Below, one piece after another: positions 9,482 through 17,906 of a DNA stretch of 64,000 nucleotides (position 1 is the stretch's first letter; each line of letters opens with the position of its first letter). The stretch is from positions 629,854 through 693,853 of the forward strand of contig JBDXCV010000009.1 of the NCBI GenBank assembly GCA_039980135.1. Reading direction: 5' to 3'. Both the position numbers and the translations under genes were made by a program. Under the pieces are notes generated by a model that searched no databases, was not told the origin of the DNA, and saw nothing but the letters and a program-made list of their open reading frames with translations. Source of the DNA: Alphaproteobacteria bacterium. Its GTDB lineage: Bacteria > Pseudomonadota > Alphaproteobacteria > UBA6615.

Positions 9482-10456
9482 GTGGCTGATAGCTCGATCT
9501 TCGCCGTCGCCGATTCACCGTTCCCGTCGCTGGAACCCGTCGAAACGGTACTCGCAAGCTTCAATCCGACCATCAGTATGGCCGCCGATACGTCCGAGGA
9601 CGCCATCATCGAGGCGGCCAAGGGCGCCAAGGCGCTGTTCGTCACCTACGCCCAGATCACCGCGAAGGTCATCGAAACGCTCGACGGTTGCGGCGCGATC
9701 GGCCGGTTCGGTATCGGCCTCGACAATATCGACCTCGACGCCGCTACGGCGGCGGGAATTCCGGTCGTCTACGCGCCGCAATATTGCCTCGACGAAGTGT
9801 CGGATCACACGATGGCGTTGCTGCTGACCGCCGCCCGCAAGACCGCGCTCGCCGACAAGCTGGTCAAGCAGGGTCGCTGGGAAATGCCGGCCGTCGTGCC
9901 GATCATGCGCTTCCGCGGCAAGACCTTGGGCCTCGTCGGCCTCGGCAATATCGCCCAGCTGGTGGCCGTGAAGGCCCAGGCCTTCGGGATCAACGTCATC
10001 GCTTCCGACCCCTATGTGAAACCCGAGGTCGCCAAGGAAAAAGGTGTGGAGCTGGTCGAATTCGACGCGCTGCTCGAACGCTCGGACTATGTATCGGTCC
10101 ACGCGCCGTTGACACCCGCGACCGAGAACATGTTCTCCACCGACGCCTTCGCGAAGATGAAGAACTCCGCCTTTATCGTGAACACGGCGCGCGGCGGCCT
10201 GATCGACACCGCGGCCCTCGTCGCGGCGCTCGACGCCGGTGAGATTGCCGGCGCCGGCCTCGATGTGCTGCCGCAGGAACCGCCGGCCAAGGATGACCCG
10301 ATCCTGAGCCGTGACGATGTGGTCATCAATCCGCACACCTCCTTCTATTCCGAGGATGCGCTGGATGACCTGCAGACCACCGTTGCGGGCGATATCCTGA
10401 CGATCCTGAATGGCGGACAGCCAAAGTGGCCCGCCAATCCGGACGTCTTCAAATAG
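9482..10456 (+). CDS. D-isomer-specific 2-hydroxyacid dehydrogenase (C-terminal-binding-protein-like)
   Basis: 324-residue NAD-dependent dehydrogenase. The substrate domain includes RFGIGLDNIDLDAAT; the nucleotide domain has GLVGLGNIAQLVAVKA with the GxGxxA-type loop; the catalytic arginine is in NTARGGLIDTAAL, the glutamate in DVLPQEPP and the histidine in NPHTSFYS. The last motif, PHTSFYSEDAL, resembles CtBP-like and phosphoglycerate-dehydrogenase-like enzymes. Translation starts at GTG 9482 after AAAGGAGAGG. The zinc dehydrogenase gene follows after 69 bp with its own ribosome site, so co-transcription and a shared catabolic route are likely. Confidence 0.9.
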   Translation: MADSSIFAVADSPFPSLEPVETVLASFNPTISMAADTSEDAIIEAAKGAKALFVTYAQITAKVIETLDGCGAIGRFGIGLDNIDLDAATAAGIPVVYAPQYCLDEVSDHTMALLLTAARKTALADKLVKQGRWEMPAVVPIMRFRGKTLGLVGLGNIAQLVAVKAQAFGINVIASDPYVKPEVAKEKGVELVEFDALLERSDYVSVHAPLTPATENMFSTDAFAKMKNSAFIVNTARGGLIDTAALVAALDAGEIAGAGLDVLPQEPPAKDDPILSRDDVVINPHTSFYSEDALDDLQTTVAGDILTILNGGQPKWPANPDVFK

Positions 10457-10525
10457 GCAGGTAAAACTGGACCCGATCAAGTAACCCGGCCGCAGGTGCC
10501 GGCAGATACCCAGGGAGATACAGCC

Positions 10526-11530
10526 ATGCGCGCAATGGTGCTCACAGAACCCAACGTGGTCGAGCAACGGGATATTCCCGAACCCACGACGGATCAGGGT
10601 GAGGCCCTGGTGCGCGTGACCAGTTCCGGCATTTGCGGGACCGACCTTAAAATTCTCACTGGCGGCATTCCGGCACCCAAGCCGATCGTCATGGGGCATG
10701 AGATGGTCGGTGAGCTTCTGAACGACGCGACTGACGCCAAGGCCGGCCAGCGCGTGCTGGTCGACCCGGTCTATCATTGCGGCACTTGCCACGCCTGTCT
10801 GCACAACCAGCAGCATATCTGCACCCGCGGCGGCCTGATCGGGCGCGACATCAATGGTGGTTTCGCCGACCTCGTGGCGGTGCCCCCGGCCAACTGTTAT
10901 GTGGTTCCCGACGAAATCGCCGACCATGAAGTCCCGCTGATCCAGGTGCTGACCACCTGCATGCACGGCCATCGCATGGCGGACATCTTCCCCGGCGATG
11001 TCGTGGTCGTGATCGGTCTCGGCGTGACCGGCCAGCTTCATGTGCAGCTGGCCAAGGCGCGCGGCGCCACCGTGATCGGCATCACACGCTCCCAGTGGAA
11101 GCTCGATCTCGCCAAGTCCCTCGGTGCGGATTACACCCTGGCTCCCGGCGACGACATCAAGGACAAGATCCTTGATATCTGCAAGGGCGACGGCGCCGAT
11201 CTGGTGATCGAATCCGTTGGCAAGGTACTGACACTCGGCCAGGCGTTCGACCTGGTGCGAACCGGCGGCGCGATCATGCCCTTTGGCATCTACACAGAGA
11301 CGAAGGCCGAACTGCCGTTCTACCAGTTCTATTTCAAGGAAATTCAGATCCTCAACGCGCGCGCGTCGAAGGGTCAGGATTTTGTGGCTTCAATGGACCT
11401 GGTGAAGCGCGGTGTGGTCAAGCTGGATCCGATGATCAGTGATCGCGAACCGCTGGAGAATCTCTCCGGCGCACTCGACATGCTGACCAGCGAAGCCAAG
11501 GGCCGGATGAAAATCATCATGGATCACTGA
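10526..11530 (+). CDS. Zinc-binding alcohol dehydrogenase (MDR superfamily)
   Basis: 334-residue medium-chain dehydrogenase. The catalytic zinc site is GICGTDLKILTGG plus GHE near residue 60; the structural zinc site is the cluster CGTCHACLHNQQHIC near residues 86-100; the NAD-binding loop is VIGLGVTGQLHVQLAKA. It oxidises a secondary alcohol or polyol of unknown identity, like threonine or sorbitol dehydrogenases. Start ATG 10526 follows AGGGAGA; ten codons of open frame precede it without a better site. Likely in an operon with the upstream 2-hydroxyacid dehydrogenase. Confidence 0.9.
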   Translation: MRAMVLTEPNVVEQRDIPEPTTDQGEALVRVTSSGICGTDLKILTGGIPAPKPIVMGHEMVGELLNDATDAKAGQRVLVDPVYHCGTCHACLHNQQHICTRGGLIGRDINGGFADLVAVPPANCYVVPDEIADHEVPLIQVLTTCMHGHRMADIFPGDVVVVIGLGVTGQLHVQLAKARGATVIGITRSQWKLDLAKSLGADYTLAPGDDIKDKILDICKGDGADLVIESVGKVLTLGQAFDLVRTGGAIMPFGIYTETKAELPFYQFYFKEIQILNARASKGQDFVASMDLVKRGVVKLDPMISDREPLENLSGALDMLTSEAKGRMKIIMDH

Positions 11531-11547: not shown

Positions 11548-13029
11548 TCACCCAGGGGACCGCATCTCACCCGGATGCATCATCGGCATCGGCTTCTTCT
11601 CGTTCAGCTCCGGCTTCAGCCAGCGCACGATCCCGGCAACCCCATCGACCCCGACGGTCGAGCCATCGGGAATCTGCTGGGTCGCACCGGCCACACCGAG
11701 CACCATCGGGATACCGCGCTCGCGCCCCAAAGACGCCAGATGGGACGTGCTGCCGCCCAGTTCCGCGACGATCGCCGACACCCGCGGGAGCACACCGACC
11801 AGCGCCGGTCCGGCGACATTGGTCACCAGCACATCGCCATGGTTCAGGCGTGAAATCTCGCATTCGCAGTTGATCACGCAGGCCCGGCCCGAGCCCCAGC
11901 CCATGCCGCCCGGATGACCGCGCAGACCCGGTCGGCCGCGCCAGACTTCGTCCAGTACAATCGGCTCCTCGACATGCAGCGGGCGCGCCTGAAGCATCTT
12001 GATCCCGTCATCGTCCTTGGCCCACTCGACCTCGACCGAGAGGCCCATCATCTCCTCGGCCACCTTCATATAGCGGGCGAGCTCGTGAACTTCGTCCGTG
12101 GTCAGGCACTGGCGGCGCGGCGCGGCGTCCTTTTGCGGTGCGTGATCATGGTCGTGGCTGTGATCATGGTCATGGTCGTGGTCGTGGTCATGGTTGTGAC
12201 CATGATTATGCGCATGGTCGTGATCGTGCTCGTGTCCCTGCGCTTGAGTCGCCGCCACGGCCGCCATCGGATTCTGGGGCGGTGCCTGATGCGCGTGGCA
12301 ATAGGCGCTGTGTTCGAATTCCTGGCCGCCAATTGCCTCGATCAGCTTGCCTTCGGCCGTCAGGTCGTATCGGTCAGGCACCACTTCACCCTGGGCCAGC
12401 GCTTCGCCGAGCCCCCACGTGGCGCTGACGGACATGCCGCCGTCGGCGGTCTGGCTCAGGCCGCCACCGGATGCTTCGGCCTCGATCAGCGGCTGGACCA
12501 GCACCGACATCGCGGTGTCGATTGCGCTGATCTCCTTGTCCTGCATGTAGCGCATGGCCTGGGGCGACCAGAGCGCGCCCCAACAGGCGCGCACGGCCGT
12601 CAGAAAGTCTTCCTCGCCCTCAATGCCGAGAAATGTCTGGAACTGCCCCGCGAAGGACGACCCCTCGGTGTCCTCCATCAGCGAGGACGACCGTACGGCG
12701 AGCCGCATGCCTGTCTCCGCCGTCAGTGCGCGGTAGGCGTCGAGGATTTCGGCTTCGATGTCCGGCGCGATGGGCTCGGAAAACAGCCCGATACGGACAT
12801 CGGCGATCGGCCCGCGCGATTCCATGAACGGCAAGTTCACCGCCTGTTCGGCGGCTTCCACCAGACCGAGGGATTCCAGCTGATGGAAATAGGCATCCGC
12901 GCCGAGCACGAAGCCGCCCGGGGTCGGCAATCCGGCATGGCCGAGTGCCGCCTGATTGGCCGCCTTCGGGCCGAACCGCGCCGCATCCGTCGCCGCCTTG
13001 TCGGTCAACGACACAACGAACTTCGCCAT
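11548..13029 (-). CDS. PEP/pyruvate-binding phosphotransferase-like protein with histidine-rich linker
   Basis: 493 residues, shorter than PEP synthase (about 790). Residues 1-240 match the PPDK_N/PEP-synthase ATP-grasp domain (ARFGPKAANQAALGHAGLPTPGGF, RSSSLMEDTEGSSFAGQF, ATWGLGEALAQGEVVPDRY). Residues 380-480 are the swivelling phosphohistidine domain with GGSTSHLASLGRERGIPMVLG-type sequence, retaining the catalytic His after Ser. The PEP-binding barrel is absent. Between them, residues 266-296 hold 16 histidines in strict alternation with mostly Asp. This layout resembles two-domain antibiotic- or substrate-phosphorylating relatives such as rifampin phosphotransferase without its middle domain. 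The acceptor is unknown; the linker suggests metal binding. Confidence 0.8.
   Translation of the reverse strand: MAKFVVSLTDKAATDAARFGPKAANQAALGHAGLPTPGGFVLGADAYFHQLESLGLVEAAEQAVNLPFMESRGPIADVRIGLFSEPIAPDIEAEILDAYRALTAETGMRLAVRSSSLMEDTEGSSFAGQFQTFLGIEGEEDFLTAVRACWGALWSPQAMRYMQDKEISAIDTAMSVLVQPLIEAEASGGGLSQTADGGMSVSATWGLGEALAQGEVVPDRYDLTAEGKLIEAIGGQEFEHSAYCHAHQAPPQNPMAAVAATQAQGHEHDHDHAHNHGHNHDHDHDHDHDHSHDHDHAPQKDAAPRRQCLTTDEVHELARYMKVAEEMMGLSVEVEWAKDDDGIKMLQARPLHVEEPIVLDEVWRGRPGLRGHPGGMGWGSGRACVINCECEISRLNHGDVLVTNVAGPALVGVLPRVSAIVAELGGSTSHLASLGRERGIPMVLGVAGATQQIPDGSTVGVDGVAGIVRWLKPELNEKKPMPMMHPGEMRSPG
12142..12234. repeat. His-Asp codon repeat inside the PEP/pyruvate-binding gene
   Basis: A 93-bp in-frame low-complexity tract of alternating His codons (CAC/CAT) and mostly Asp codons (GAC/GAT), reading as GTG/ATG-rich repeats on the plus strand. 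It encodes residues 266-296 with 16 histidines. Codon use alternates between synonymous forms, which argues that selection keeps the protein sequence and not only the DNA repeat. Confidence 0.9.
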
Positions 13030-13163: not shown

Positions 13164-14423
13164 TTAGTGCGGCATCGGGTCGACGACCGTGATCTGGTTC
13201 ACCGGGAAGTTGGTGATGACCTCGGTCTCGTCCGCGTGGACAATCTGCATCTCCTCGATGCGGCAGCCGAACTTGAACGGAACGCCGTGCTGCGTCTCGA
13301 GCGCGAAGACCATGCCTTCCTGGATCTCGATCGGATGATCGAGGGACCAGATGCGCGAGATGACGGGCGGATCGTACTGGGCAAGACCCAGGCCGTGGCC
13401 CCACAGGTTCGCGGCCGCCTGATCTTCTTCCTCGTAACCCCAGGCCTCCTTGGCGGACGGCCATTTCAGGGCGATGTCGCGGGTCGAGGCACCGACCTTC
13501 ACCGCTTCCATCGAGGACTGCAGCCAATCGAGCGCCTCGGCATACACATCCTTCATCTCCTGCGTCGGCTCGCGGCCAACACAATAGGTGCGGTAGTAGC
13601 AGGACTTGTAGCCATTCCACGTCAGTGCCGCCAAATCCATGAAGACGATGTCGCCTGGCTGGATGATGCGGTCACCGAAGTTACGCCAGTTCGGCCAGGT
13701 GTTCGGACCCGAGGAAACGATGACGTCCTCGACATCTTCCATGCCCGGAATGTCGTACAGGAACTTCATGATGTGCGCGGTCACCTGGTTCTCGGTGATA
13801 CCCGGCTTCAGAAACTTCATGCACTCCCAGTGGGCCGCATCGCCGATCGCGCCAACGATACGGGCACATTCCTGCTCGTCTTTGCTCTTGACCGCACGGG
13901 CGTCCATCATCGGGGACATACCGTCCGCCCACTCAATGCCCTCTTCGGCAAAGTGGTTCATCATGTTGATGTCGACGAAATCAACGCCCAGCTTCTCGCC
14001 GGCCACACCGAAACGCGCCATCTCTTCCTTGATCGCGTTGGTGAACTTGGTCACCTGCTGCGTCGAGGCACCGCCCGCTGCGCCCTTGATCCAGGCGTAG
14101 GAGTAACGGATGTTCTCGGGCGGGATCCACGGCGCGTGGCGCTCGACCTGCATGCCGATATCACCCTGCTCGAACAGGACCGGTGCGGCATCGCCACACA
14201 GCAGCGCATAGCGCAGACCCGGCTTCAGGCGGTTCCAGCCCGGCGTCAGCGTTCCCGTGATGTAGCGAACGTTCTCGTCATACATGCAAAGCATGGCGCC
14301 GAGGCCAGCCTTCTTCATCATGTCGCGGGCGCGCTCGAGGCGATAGTTGCGCAGGCGGTCCCAGTTGACCTTTTCCTGCCAATCGACTCCGGTAATGCCG
14401 AAATTCGCCGTTCCGTATCGCAT
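13164..14423 (-). CDS. M24 family (creatinase/aminopeptidase P fold) protein with an altered metal site
   Basis: 419 residues: an N-terminal creatinase-type domain (MKKAGLGAMLCMYDENVRYITG) and a C-terminal pita-bread domain. Metal-ligand positions are D263 (IVFMDLAAL), C275 (GYKSCYYRTY) where the family has Asp, H343 (LWGHGLGL), a Glu in FALETQ and one in CRIEEM. The usual DxG at the first site is DLA. The pattern resembles the M24 branch that includes the DMSP lyase DddP, which also deviates from peptidases, but DddP keeps the second Asp. It may be a non-peptidase lyase or hydrolase. No signal peptide. Confidence 0.8.
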   Translation of the reverse strand: MRYGTANFGITGVDWQEKVNWDRLRNYRLERARDMMKKAGLGAMLCMYDENVRYITGTLTPGWNRLKPGLRYALLCGDAAPVLFEQGDIGMQVERHAPWIPPENIRYSYAWIKGAAGGASTQQVTKFTNAIKEEMARFGVAGEKLGVDFVDINMMNHFAEEGIEWADGMSPMMDARAVKSKDEQECARIVGAIGDAAHWECMKFLKPGITENQVTAHIMKFLYDIPGMEDVEDVIVSSGPNTWPNWRNFGDRIIQPGDIVFMDLAALTWNGYKSCYYRTYCVGREPTQEMKDVYAEALDWLQSSMEAVKVGASTRDIALKWPSAKEAWGYEEEDQAAANLWGHGLGLAQYDPPVISRIWSLDHPIEIQEGMVFALETQHGVPFKFGCRIEEMQIVHADETEVITNFPVNQITVVDPMPH

Positions 14424-14690: not shown

Positions 14691-16412
14691 CTATTCAGCT
14701 GCCGCCGTTTCATTTTTCACCGGATCGGTCGAGAACTCGATTCCGCCCGCATCTGTACGGTGCAGGCGCGTCACCTTGCGCCAGTCGGCATCATTGGTGT
14801 CGGGATAATCGAGACGGTAGTGCGCGCCGCGGCTTTCCTCGCGCTCCAGCGCCGCCGTCGCGAGAATCCGGCCGAGCAGCGCCAGGTTGCGGATCGAAAG
14901 CGCACTCTCGATTTCCTCGCCCCGGCCCTTGCCCGTATCGCGTGCCTCTTCCGACAGGCGCAGATTCCGCAAATCCTCATTCTCGATGCGCTCATACTCG
15001 GTGAGCGCCTCGCGCAGCGTGGCCTCGTCGCGGATCGGGCCCAGCTTGTCATGGGCCAGCATCCGGCAATGCATCCGCACATCACCCTGATACGGGCCAT
15101 CAGCCCGCTCCAGGAGACCGCTCAGCCACTCGCGCTCCGTCTCTGGAATCGCATTATCGCCGAGGGCCGGGACCGAAACCGGCTCGGAACCGATGAGCTC
15201 GGCCGCCTTGCGGCCGGCGCGACGGCCGAACGCCAGCGACGCGGCCAGGGCCGAGCCGCCGATCCGGTTGCCGCCGTGGATGCCGCCGGCTGTCTCGCCC
15301 GCGGCAAACAGGCCCGGAATCGAACTCTGGCCATAAGTGTCCACATCCAGCCCGCCGAGCCATGTATGGCTGCCCGGCGCGACTTCGAGCGGGGTCTTGG
15401 TGATGTCGATGCCACGGTGCAGGCAGGTCTTGTAGACATGCGGGATCTGCTTCTGGATGGTCTCGATCGGAATCGCCGTCGCATCCATGTAGATACCACC
15501 CGTCGAACCCGCGCGGCCCGCATGAATTTCCTTGGCCATCGCCAGGATCACTTCCGAGCGCGACGACTTCTCGGCCGTGTCCGGGAAGTAGCGCTTGAGG
15601 AACTCCTCGCCCTCTTCGTTGCGGAACACCGCGCCGGCGTTAATAAAGCCGGTGGGATGAGGTGCGAAACCGAACAGCTCCTCGGGCGAGCAGCACATGG
15701 CCTGAAAATCGATCATCTCGATGCCCAGCAAATCCGCACCCGCGCGAAAGCCCATGACATAGCCGTCACCGGTCACCTGCGGCGGGTTGTCGTTTACATA
15801 GAACAGGCCGCTGCCGCCGCCGGTCGCGAGAATCACCTGCTGGGCGGTGTAGGTCACCAGCTTGGCATTGCGGTAGTCGACGCCCCAGGCGCCGACGACG
15901 CGGCCGTCATGCTTCACCAGATCGACGATCGCGGTCAGGGAGTGTTTCTCGATCCGGTCGTCGCCGCGCAGGCGCTTCGACAGGACCTTGGTCACCATAT
16001 TGCCCGTGGTGTCATAGTGATGGCAGGCCCGCGGGTGGGAATGGTTGGGGAACATCTTCAGGTCGAGTTCGCCATCCTCACCGCGAATGAACTCGGCGCC
16101 CCATTCCTCGAGATCCTTGACGATCTGGACGATATCCTCGCACCAGGCCCGTGCCATCTCCGGGTCGATCAACTCGCCACCATATTTCAGGATGTCGTCC
16201 AGATGCTGGGCAGGGCTGTCATCCTTGCCCATCGCCGCGGCAAAACCGCCGCGCGCCACCGTCGTCGTGCCGCTGGTCGCGCGGCCCTTGGTGACCTGGA
16301 TCGTCTTGACGCCGGCCGTGGCGCATTCGAAGGCGGCCATCGTCGCCGCCGCACCACCACCGACGATCAGGACGTCGGTTTCAAAATGTTCGACCTCAAT
16401 GGAAAGGCTCAT
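14691..16412 (-). CDS. FAD-dependent fumarate reductase / succinate dehydrogenase flavoprotein-like oxidoreductase
   Basis: 573-residue flavoprotein. The FAD-binding Rossmann motif DVLIVGGGAAATMAA is at residues 11-25; the segment SGTTTVARGGFA lacks the histidine that carries covalent FAD in SdhA/FrdA, so FAD is probably non-covalent. Substrate-side motifs are RACHHYDTTGNM, GSHTWLGGLDVD and the C-terminal FAD loop FAAGETAGGIHGGNRIGGSAL. The helical C-terminal domain is present. Its ATG overlaps the stop of the upstream Tm-1-like gene (ATGA), so the two are translationally coupled. No iron-sulfur or membrane-anchor subunit is nearby, so the electron partner is unknown; it is not a complete complex II. 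Confidence 0.88.
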   Translation of the reverse strand: MSLSIEVEHFETDVLIVGGGAAATMAAFECATAGVKTIQVTKGRATSGTTTVARGGFAAAMGKDDSPAQHLDDILKYGGELIDPEMARAWCEDIVQIVKDLEEWGAEFIRGEDGELDLKMFPNHSHPRACHHYDTTGNMVTKVLSKRLRGDDRIEKHSLTAIVDLVKHDGRVVGAWGVDYRNAKLVTYTAQQVILATGGGSGLFYVNDNPPQVTGDGYVMGFRAGADLLGIEMIDFQAMCCSPEELFGFAPHPTGFINAGAVFRNEEGEEFLKRYFPDTAEKSSRSEVILAMAKEIHAGRAGSTGGIYMDATAIPIETIQKQIPHVYKTCLHRGIDITKTPLEVAPGSHTWLGGLDVDTYGQSSIPGLFAAGETAGGIHGGNRIGGSALAASLAFGRRAGRKAAELIGSEPVSVPALGDNAIPETEREWLSGLLERADGPYQGDVRMHCRMLAHDKLGPIRDEATLREALTEYERIENEDLRNLRLSEEARDTGKGRGEEIESALSIRNLALLGRILATAALEREESRGAHYRLDYPDTNDADWRKVTRLHRTDAGGIEFSTDPVKNETAAAE

Positions 16413-17692
16413 GACGCTGCTCCGGATGTGCGGGTTCCGCCCGGTGCGGACCCGATGATTTCGAGAAATGCCGCCACGCAGGCATCTGCGAAGGCGGCAT
16501 CGTTGATGTGGCACGGGAGTTCTTCGACCGTGCCGGTGGTCAGATTCTCATTCAGGGTCTGGCTGAACTTCCGGTCGGTCTCGGGTTGTTTCCACGACCC
16601 CAACTCGTTCTCCGCCAAATCATATGTCTTGCGCTTGGTGTGCTCGCTATAGCCCTCGAGCGGGATCAGCACCCGAACCGGTCCGTTGGCGGCGTTCAGT
16701 CGCTCGGCAAAGGCGCGGCCGAGTTCGGCCATCTCATCGCCATTTGTCCGCATCAGAAGATTCTGCGCGTTGTACTGGAAAAATTCCCGCTCGCGATAGC
16801 GCTCGGGTGCCTGCCCGGCCCAGAAGTTCGAATGGTCGATCGCGCCCGGCACGACGACCTGGGGCAGCCCCATCGCACCCGCACCGGTCAGGCGTTCCCC
16901 GCCCGCGTCATACACGCCGTTGGTCACGAAATCCGTGAGCTCGTGGGTGGTAATGTCGAGAACACCGGCCAGCTCGCCCTCGCGCGCCAGCCGTTCGAGC
17001 GCCCGGCCGCCGATGCCCGAAGCGTGAAACAGAATGACCTCGAAACCCTCCGCTTCGAGCAGCGCCTGCGCGCGATCCACACAACCCGCCGTACCCCCGA
17101 AGGATGAAATCGCCACCAGCGGCGGATGATCTTCGGTCTCGGCGGCCTTGTTGGCCCGGTGGCACGCGGCAGCCGCCACGCCAACGGCGGCGTTCTCCAT
17201 CGCGGCCTTGGTGATCCGGTTGAGCGCCACATCGCCGATCGAAGCGTGCATGGCGATATCGGCCTCGGCCACATACCATTGCACGGCAGCCGTCGCGGCG
17301 ACCGCGCTCACCATCGCCTTGGGCACCAGATAAGGCAGCGCGCGCATGATCGCGCAGGCCATGGTCGTGCCGTTGGCGCCGCCCAGGCCGATCGCGCCAT
17401 CGAGTTCGCCGGCATCGAAGCGGCCGCGCACGACCTTGATGGCGCCGTCTAGCATGGCGTCCGATGCCGCGCGCCGGTCCATCTTCGCCAGGCCGTCCCA
17501 GCTATGTCCGCCTGCTTCGGCAACGTCACCACCGGTCATGTCGGCGCCGGTACTGTCGTGGGGCATCAGGGAGAGGTCGACGATCCAGGGCGTGGTGCCG
17601 GCATTGGCCAGGCATGATGCGACGAACAGCGCCTCCGGCGCCTTGGTGTCCATGGTCACCAGGATGGCGACAGTCGGTTTGGCGGCTGACAT
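16409..17692 (-). CDS. Tm-1-like ATP-binding domain protein (UPF0261)
   Basis: 427-residue member of the UPF0261/Tm-1-like family, named after the ATP-binding domain of the tomato mosaic virus resistance protein Tm-1. Landmarks are TVAILVTMDTKAPEALFVA at the start, AIGLGGANGTTMACAIMRALP, ISSFGGTAGCVDRAQALLE and FHASGIGGRALERLA. Bacterial function is unknown; members usually sit with a TIM-barrel PEP-hydrolase-family partner, which is absent here. Start ATG 17692 is chosen at the start of homology; the frame is open 27 codons further. It is the first gene of a coupled pair with the flavoprotein. Confidence 0.88.
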   Translation of the reverse strand: MSAAKPTVAILVTMDTKAPEALFVASCLANAGTTPWIVDLSLMPHDSTGADMTGGDVAEAGGHSWDGLAKMDRRAASDAMLDGAIKVVRGRFDAGELDGAIGLGGANGTTMACAIMRALPYLVPKAMVSAVAATAAVQWYVAEADIAMHASIGDVALNRITKAAMENAAVGVAAAACHRANKAAETEDHPPLVAISSFGGTAGCVDRAQALLEAEGFEVILFHASGIGGRALERLAREGELAGVLDITTHELTDFVTNGVYDAGGERLTGAGAMGLPQVVVPGAIDHSNFWAGQAPERYREREFFQYNAQNLLMRTNGDEMAELGRAFAERLNAANGPVRVLIPLEGYSEHTKRKTYDLAENELGSWKQPETDRKFSQTLNENLTTGTVEELPCHINDAAFADACVAAFLEIIGSAPGGTRTSGAAS

Positions 17693-17906
17693 TTCGGGCC
17701 GTTTCTTCCCTGTTGTTTTTCTGCGTGCGGGTTTATCACATGCCGCTAGTCTGATCGCGACGCTCAACCGCAAAAAACTTGTTCCGGTTTTTCCCGGCCA
17801 AATCGTGCTTTCCGCGGATCATAGCGAATGAAAGAGTGTCTCGAAACATGCGCATGACGTTTGCGTGTTTGAGTATCTACGAACCACAACCGCGTCGGGA
17901 TCACCC

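Follow-up and report, generated by a model that had tools for sequence, protein, structure and literature searches.

The window (the whole stretch of DNA analysed, 64 000 nucleotides, from a marine bacterium) carries a dikinase-like gene on its minus strand. The gene and the features of its product are as follows:

11548..13029, minus strand: dikinase-like gene, 493 aa, with an ATP-grasp and a phosphohistidine domain and no PEP barrel (open reading frame; Pfam; full-length orthologues in 11 genomes)
11968..12978, minus strand: ATP-grasp domain (PPDK_N), residues 18-354 (Pfam)
11632..11844, minus strand: phosphohistidine (swivel) domain, residues 396-466 (Pfam PEP-utilizers)
11740..11742, minus strand: H430, predicted phosphorylated histidine, in GGSTSHLAS (invariant; aligns with the PEP synthase catalytic His)
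12142..12234, minus strand: alternating-His tract, residues 266-296, a variable loop within the ATP-grasp domain (translation, alignments)
12289..12312, minus strand: H240-x3-C244-x2-H247, candidate metal ligands just before the loop (invariant in 12 of 12 sequences, tractless orthologues included)
12106..12108, minus strand: C308, fourth candidate ligand, just after the loop (invariant in 12 of 12)

Only two Pfam families scored above cut-off in the 493-residue protein, PPDK_N (PF01326; E 1.3e-54, 186 bits) and PEP-utilizers (PF00391; E 1.5e-17, 63 bits), and the inter-domain linker proper was located at about residues 355-395. The C-terminal PEP/pyruvate TIM barrel (PF02896) gave no match at E values up to 0.001, and the chain ends at 493 aa. 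The best family matches, NF005057 and TIGR01418, cover residues 3-469; with 239.3 bits (cut-off 598) and 228.9 bits (cut-off 739.75), respectively, neither reached the score of a full-length PEP-synthase equivalog. An earlier note on this DNA had described the protein as devoid of the PEP-binding barrel and as something other than a PEP synthase, and both statements were borne out by these searches. Two matches to zinc transporters were rejected as low-complexity matches: ZIP (PF02535) reached 23.2 bits (cut-off 35.1) over residues 246-310 only, that is, on the His tract, and a PDB match to zinc transporter 7 fell on the tract as well.

Residues K22, R113, E333, E335, Q347, R349 and H430 were invariant in all 12 sequences compared. 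They include the nucleotide-binding K, R, E, Q set of PPDK_N (K22, R113, E333, E335 and Q347) and the catalytic His of the swivel domain, which is held in a GGxTSH motif; H430 was aligned with the catalytic His of PEP synthase by phmmer alignment to solved PEP synthases. The counterparts in Clostridium symbiosum PPDK are presumably K22, R92, D321, E323, Q335 and H455, and the spacing of E333/E335/Q347 is the same as that of D321/E323/Q335. Because the catalytic residues are invariant, the ATP-to-histidine half reaction should be intact, with the ATP-grasp domain phosphorylating H430 of the swivel domain in what would be an autophosphorylation. Since the chain itself lacks a PEP barrel, the acceptor is placed outside it: the phosphoryl group would pass from H430 to an acceptor that another protein binds or that sits at a small-molecule site outside the dikinase chain.

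Translation of 12142-12234 on the minus strand gave HEHDHDHAHNHGHNHDHDHDHDHDHSHDHDH, 31 residues with His at every odd position (16 in total), exactly as the earlier note had it. The tract is far from chance, since 2.4% of the residues elsewhere in the protein are His (binomial P = 1.6e-12 for the loop). Its assignment to the linker between the ATP-grasp and phosphohistidine domains proved wrong, because the PPDK_N match (residues 18-354) extends on both sides of the tract and the end of the ATP-grasp domain ('LTTDEV.ELA...VEVEWA...LQARPL') comes after it, in Pfam and in phmmer alignments to the PEP synthases 8a8e and 2ols. The 2ols alignment breaks at query residue 221 (2ols 239) and restarts at query residue 299 (2ols 284), and the tract therefore lies within what is, in the 2ols enzyme, a stretch of some 45 residues before the end of the ATP-grasp domain. 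With the tract placed in an internal loop of the ATP-grasp domain, it does not follow that the length or metal state of a linker sets the movement of the swivel domain. Of the two-domain phosphotransferase with metal-dependent movement or activity that had been proposed, the His-phosphotransfer machinery looks intact and the swivel-linker movement is unsupported; since the tract is missing from some orthologues, it is unlikely to be the basis of any metal dependence of activity.

Orthologues were sought in 60 related genomes and then in the family, where full-length genes were present in 12 of 24 genomes (window counted in). One further case, in another family and with the gene cut by a contig end, was obtained from a sample of the class (about 385 genomes); in the phylum sample, no copy was found beyond that of the window. 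The loop between H247 and C308 comprises 60 residues with 16 His in the window protein and, in the other orthologues (residues/His), 54/12, 54/13, 50/10, 26/4, 36/11, 23/4, 27/7, 26/4, 26/3, 25/1 and 17/0. Enrichment in His was clear in nine of the 12 sequences (binomial, P 1.6e-12 to 1.5e-3), borderline in G015 (P = 0.024) and not found in G019 and G013, which have lost the tract; the His-rich loop, whose presence in orthologues the earlier note had wanted checked, is thus shared by most of the family members carrying the gene. The tract has grown and shrunk, since 4 to 16 His occur within one genus and tractless G013, the most divergent orthologue, forms the longest branch (tree built without the loop, midpoint root only).

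Such variation would also be produced by a near-neutral, low-complexity CAY-GAY expansion in an exposed, disordered loop, functionless and flanked by Cys and His residues with some other role. Loop lengths of 60, 54, 54 and 50 were found among sequences 91-97% identical, and 26 in one that is 86% identical; the tract is absent or nearly absent in two orthologues, and its DNA has a tandem structure of period 6 and period 18, so slippage contributes too. However, the His codons are a mixture of CAC (9) and CAT (7), all 16 of which still encode His, whereas residues other than Asp occupy 6 of the 15 intervening positions; silent variation at the kept His set against replacement at the alternate positions points to selection for His rather than to repeat slippage alone. 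His enrichment also recurs in separate genera, and within the same genome, tracts of this kind occur mostly in metal proteins. A functionless expansion is accordingly held to be possible, if on the doubtful side.

The tracts elsewhere in the genome were located by a DNA pattern, with weaker matches taken in only in part. At least seven other proteins carry them, and five of the seven belong to metal-handling or metalloenzyme families, namely CobW, a CbiX-type chelatase, two nitrile hydratase alpha subunits and a ZnuC-like ABC ATPase (ZnuC label by eye). The remaining two are ThrS, which is a zinc enzyme, and a membrane protein without a Pfam match; alternating-His tracts are therefore not exclusive to metal handling. 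In the threonyl-tRNA synthetase (L075, G000:C3 18500-21600) the insertion is short, HGHDHDHD, and stands directly before the segment NRMLALKPMNCPCH. The two nitrile-hydratase alpha-type proteins, L071 (G000:C1 89500-92600) and L076 (G000:C3 828500-831500), both have His-Asp-rich N-termini within the one genome.

The segment around the loop (residues 223-319) contains only seven positions invariant in all 12 sequences: G227, G235, H240, C244, H247, C308 and L309. Four of the seven are Cys or His (P about 6e-5, simple binomial on background frequency), in a segment where 7 of 87 positions are invariant, against 210 of 383 elsewhere. The HxxxCxxH motif was not seen in aligned ordinary PEP synthases of the same class, which have a 'GaKxxKMIY'-like sequence there; a Cys at the position of C308 is shared by one of them (L017). 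In G013 the Cys/His set is retained despite the missing tract, with a one-residue gap needed to place H240. An AlphaFold2 model computed from five close sequences had a pLDDT of 29 and was discarded.

With H240, C244, H247 and C308 invariant in 12 of 12 sequences while the tract varies, the conserved Cys/His site is probably older than the tract, and the family would thus present a plausible sequence of events; the simplest reading is a putative metal site closed by both ends of the loop, to which the tract was added later. Metal binding by the protein is likely, judging from the sequences compared. The H240-x3-C244-x2-H247 / C308 set, in the C-terminal part of the ATP-grasp domain, would most likely bind the metal, with Zn as a first guess and Co or Ni possible, and the alternating-His tract would be a later and variable addition serving to capture or buffer metal close to this set, much as CobW and HypB proteins have His stretches next to their metal sites. 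The tract would then be neither an inter-domain hinge nor needed for catalysis as such. A metal-chelating role, as first suggested, remains plausible in view of the invariant HxxxCxxH...C flanks and of the tracts in metal proteins of the same genome, with the linker location given up.

Metal might go further and gate the enzyme, in that its binding at HxxxCxxH/C and the His loop would open or close the ATP-grasp domain and so switch phosphotransfer. The Cys/His set does lie in the domain that is reported to close on ATP binding in RPH and PPDK (PMC12167813), and H240, C244, H247 and C308 do not vary, but the set could equally be structural and no metal-responsive box was found near the gene; gating is considered very unlikely. 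A Zur-like box, which the earlier note had proposed to look for upstream, was searched with a simple consensus pattern and had no match anywhere in the window, which leaves zinc regulation without support. No metal gene was noticed beside the dikinase gene.

The conserved neighbours of the dikinase gene in the window are:

13164..14423, minus strand: M24-family protein, obligate neighbour (Pfam Peptidase_M24)
14691..16412, minus strand: FAD-binding fumarate-reductase/succinate-dehydrogenase-like flavoprotein, conserved cluster member
16409..17692, minus strand: UPF0261 (Tm-1-like N-terminal domain) protein, conserved cluster member
9482..10456, plus strand: D-2-hydroxyacid dehydrogenase, conserved cluster member
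10496..11530, plus strand: zinc-type alcohol dehydrogenase family protein, conserved cluster member

This cluster (M24, dikinase, UPF0261, FAD protein, 2-hydroxyacid dehydrogenase and zinc-type dehydrogenase) is kept across genera with rearrangements, and Gfo/Idh/MocA and FAA-hydrolase proteins are usual further members; it represents an uncharacterised pathway. Across genera, and with one other family included, the M24 protein shows 83-90% identity; in the class sample, four genomes carry its gene, the same four that carry the dikinase gene. The M24 protein is distantly DddP-like (99 bits, cut-off 600; PDB match 4s00). On our reading of the alignment, its invariant Cys275 seems to take the place of the second metal-binding Asp that is usual in M24 enzymes, and for this reason the protein may not be a normal metallopeptidase.

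Candidates for the acceptor were considered among the neighbouring genes. A CitE/HpcH-like protein at 17865 was rejected as the missing acceptor domain, being absent from the clusters of other genera. In G013, a PF09370 PEP-hydrolase-like TIM barrel is encoded directly downstream of the dikinase (L034:8273-9115, minus strand), and the plant protein Tm-1 combines UPF0261 with a TIM-barrel domain in one chain (PMC5028733). The PF09370 barrel is a possible acceptor partner but stays only a lead, because in the other genera examined it lies elsewhere, beside neither UPF0261 nor the dikinase, and because two genomes that lack the dikinase have it too.

The barrel-less architecture is already known, since the same truncation is found in VadK (Rv1127c) of Mycobacterium tuberculosis, a two-domain protein that autophosphorylates His422, in its swivel domain, and pulls down methylcitrate enzymes (PMC13400623). 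The likeness, matched by architecture as described, consists of an ATP-grasp and a phosphohistidine domain with the PEP/pyruvate domain missing in both; however, VadK regulates the methylcitrate cycle and the gene neighbourhood of the present dikinase differs. A VadK-like regulatory kinase, which would bind and control the metabolic enzymes of the cluster instead of catalysing a pathway step, would fit the shared two-domain architecture (VadK pulls down PrpC and PrpD; PMC13400623) and the M24 protein as obligate neighbour. No methylcitrate genes were recognised in the cluster, though, and this alternative is regarded as unlikely.

In the two-component dikinases HpeHI, CreHI and PpsAB, the ATP-grasp and acceptor parts are on separate chains (PMC12167813). 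They resemble the present protein in that ATP-grasp and swivel chemistry is split over chains and in their location in catabolic gene clusters, but there the swivel and acceptor domains share a chain and the ATP-grasp domain stands alone, whereas here the swivel domain is joined to the ATP-grasp domain and the acceptor domain is missing. PEP synthase (PF01326 + PF00391 + PF02896) provides the best family matches and shares the catalytic residues; in contrast to it, the present protein has no C-terminal barrel and has an extra loop with HxxxCxxH and the His tract. The metal GTPases COG0523, HypB and UreG, in which His stretches come and go between homologues (PMC2770081), likewise pair a metal-related motif with an (HD)n tract that varies and is often absent, but they are GTPases without sequence kinship to the dikinase.

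Our preferred reading, to which we give about an even chance, is that of a phosphohistidine dikinase subunit that lacks the barrel, probably has a metal site, and carries a dispensable, expanding loop rich in His for metal capture. The enzyme is probably of a known kind, in a metal-binding version, and not a new machine. Each ingredient is already known from relatives (VadK, the two-component dikinases, the metal GTPases), so it is the combination, not the parts, that is new. If the Cys/His set binds metal, the protein would be a dikinase whose ATP-grasp domain has an additional site for a transition metal and a capture loop rich in His; no such enzyme was met in the literature searched. Found only alongside one M24 protein in the genomes searched, the barrel-less dikinase would mark an uncharacterised pathway with an identifiable acceptor. 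A fuller version, a metal-gated barrel-less dikinase that gained a Zn (or Co) site and a capture loop and takes its acceptor in trans from the M24/UPF0261/FAD cluster, in an undescribed catabolic pathway of marine alphaproteobacteria, appears quite unlikely.

Just before the swivel match, at 11860-11916 on the minus strand, H372, C384, C388 and C390 (CECE motif) are invariant in all orthologues and possibly form a second Cys/His site.
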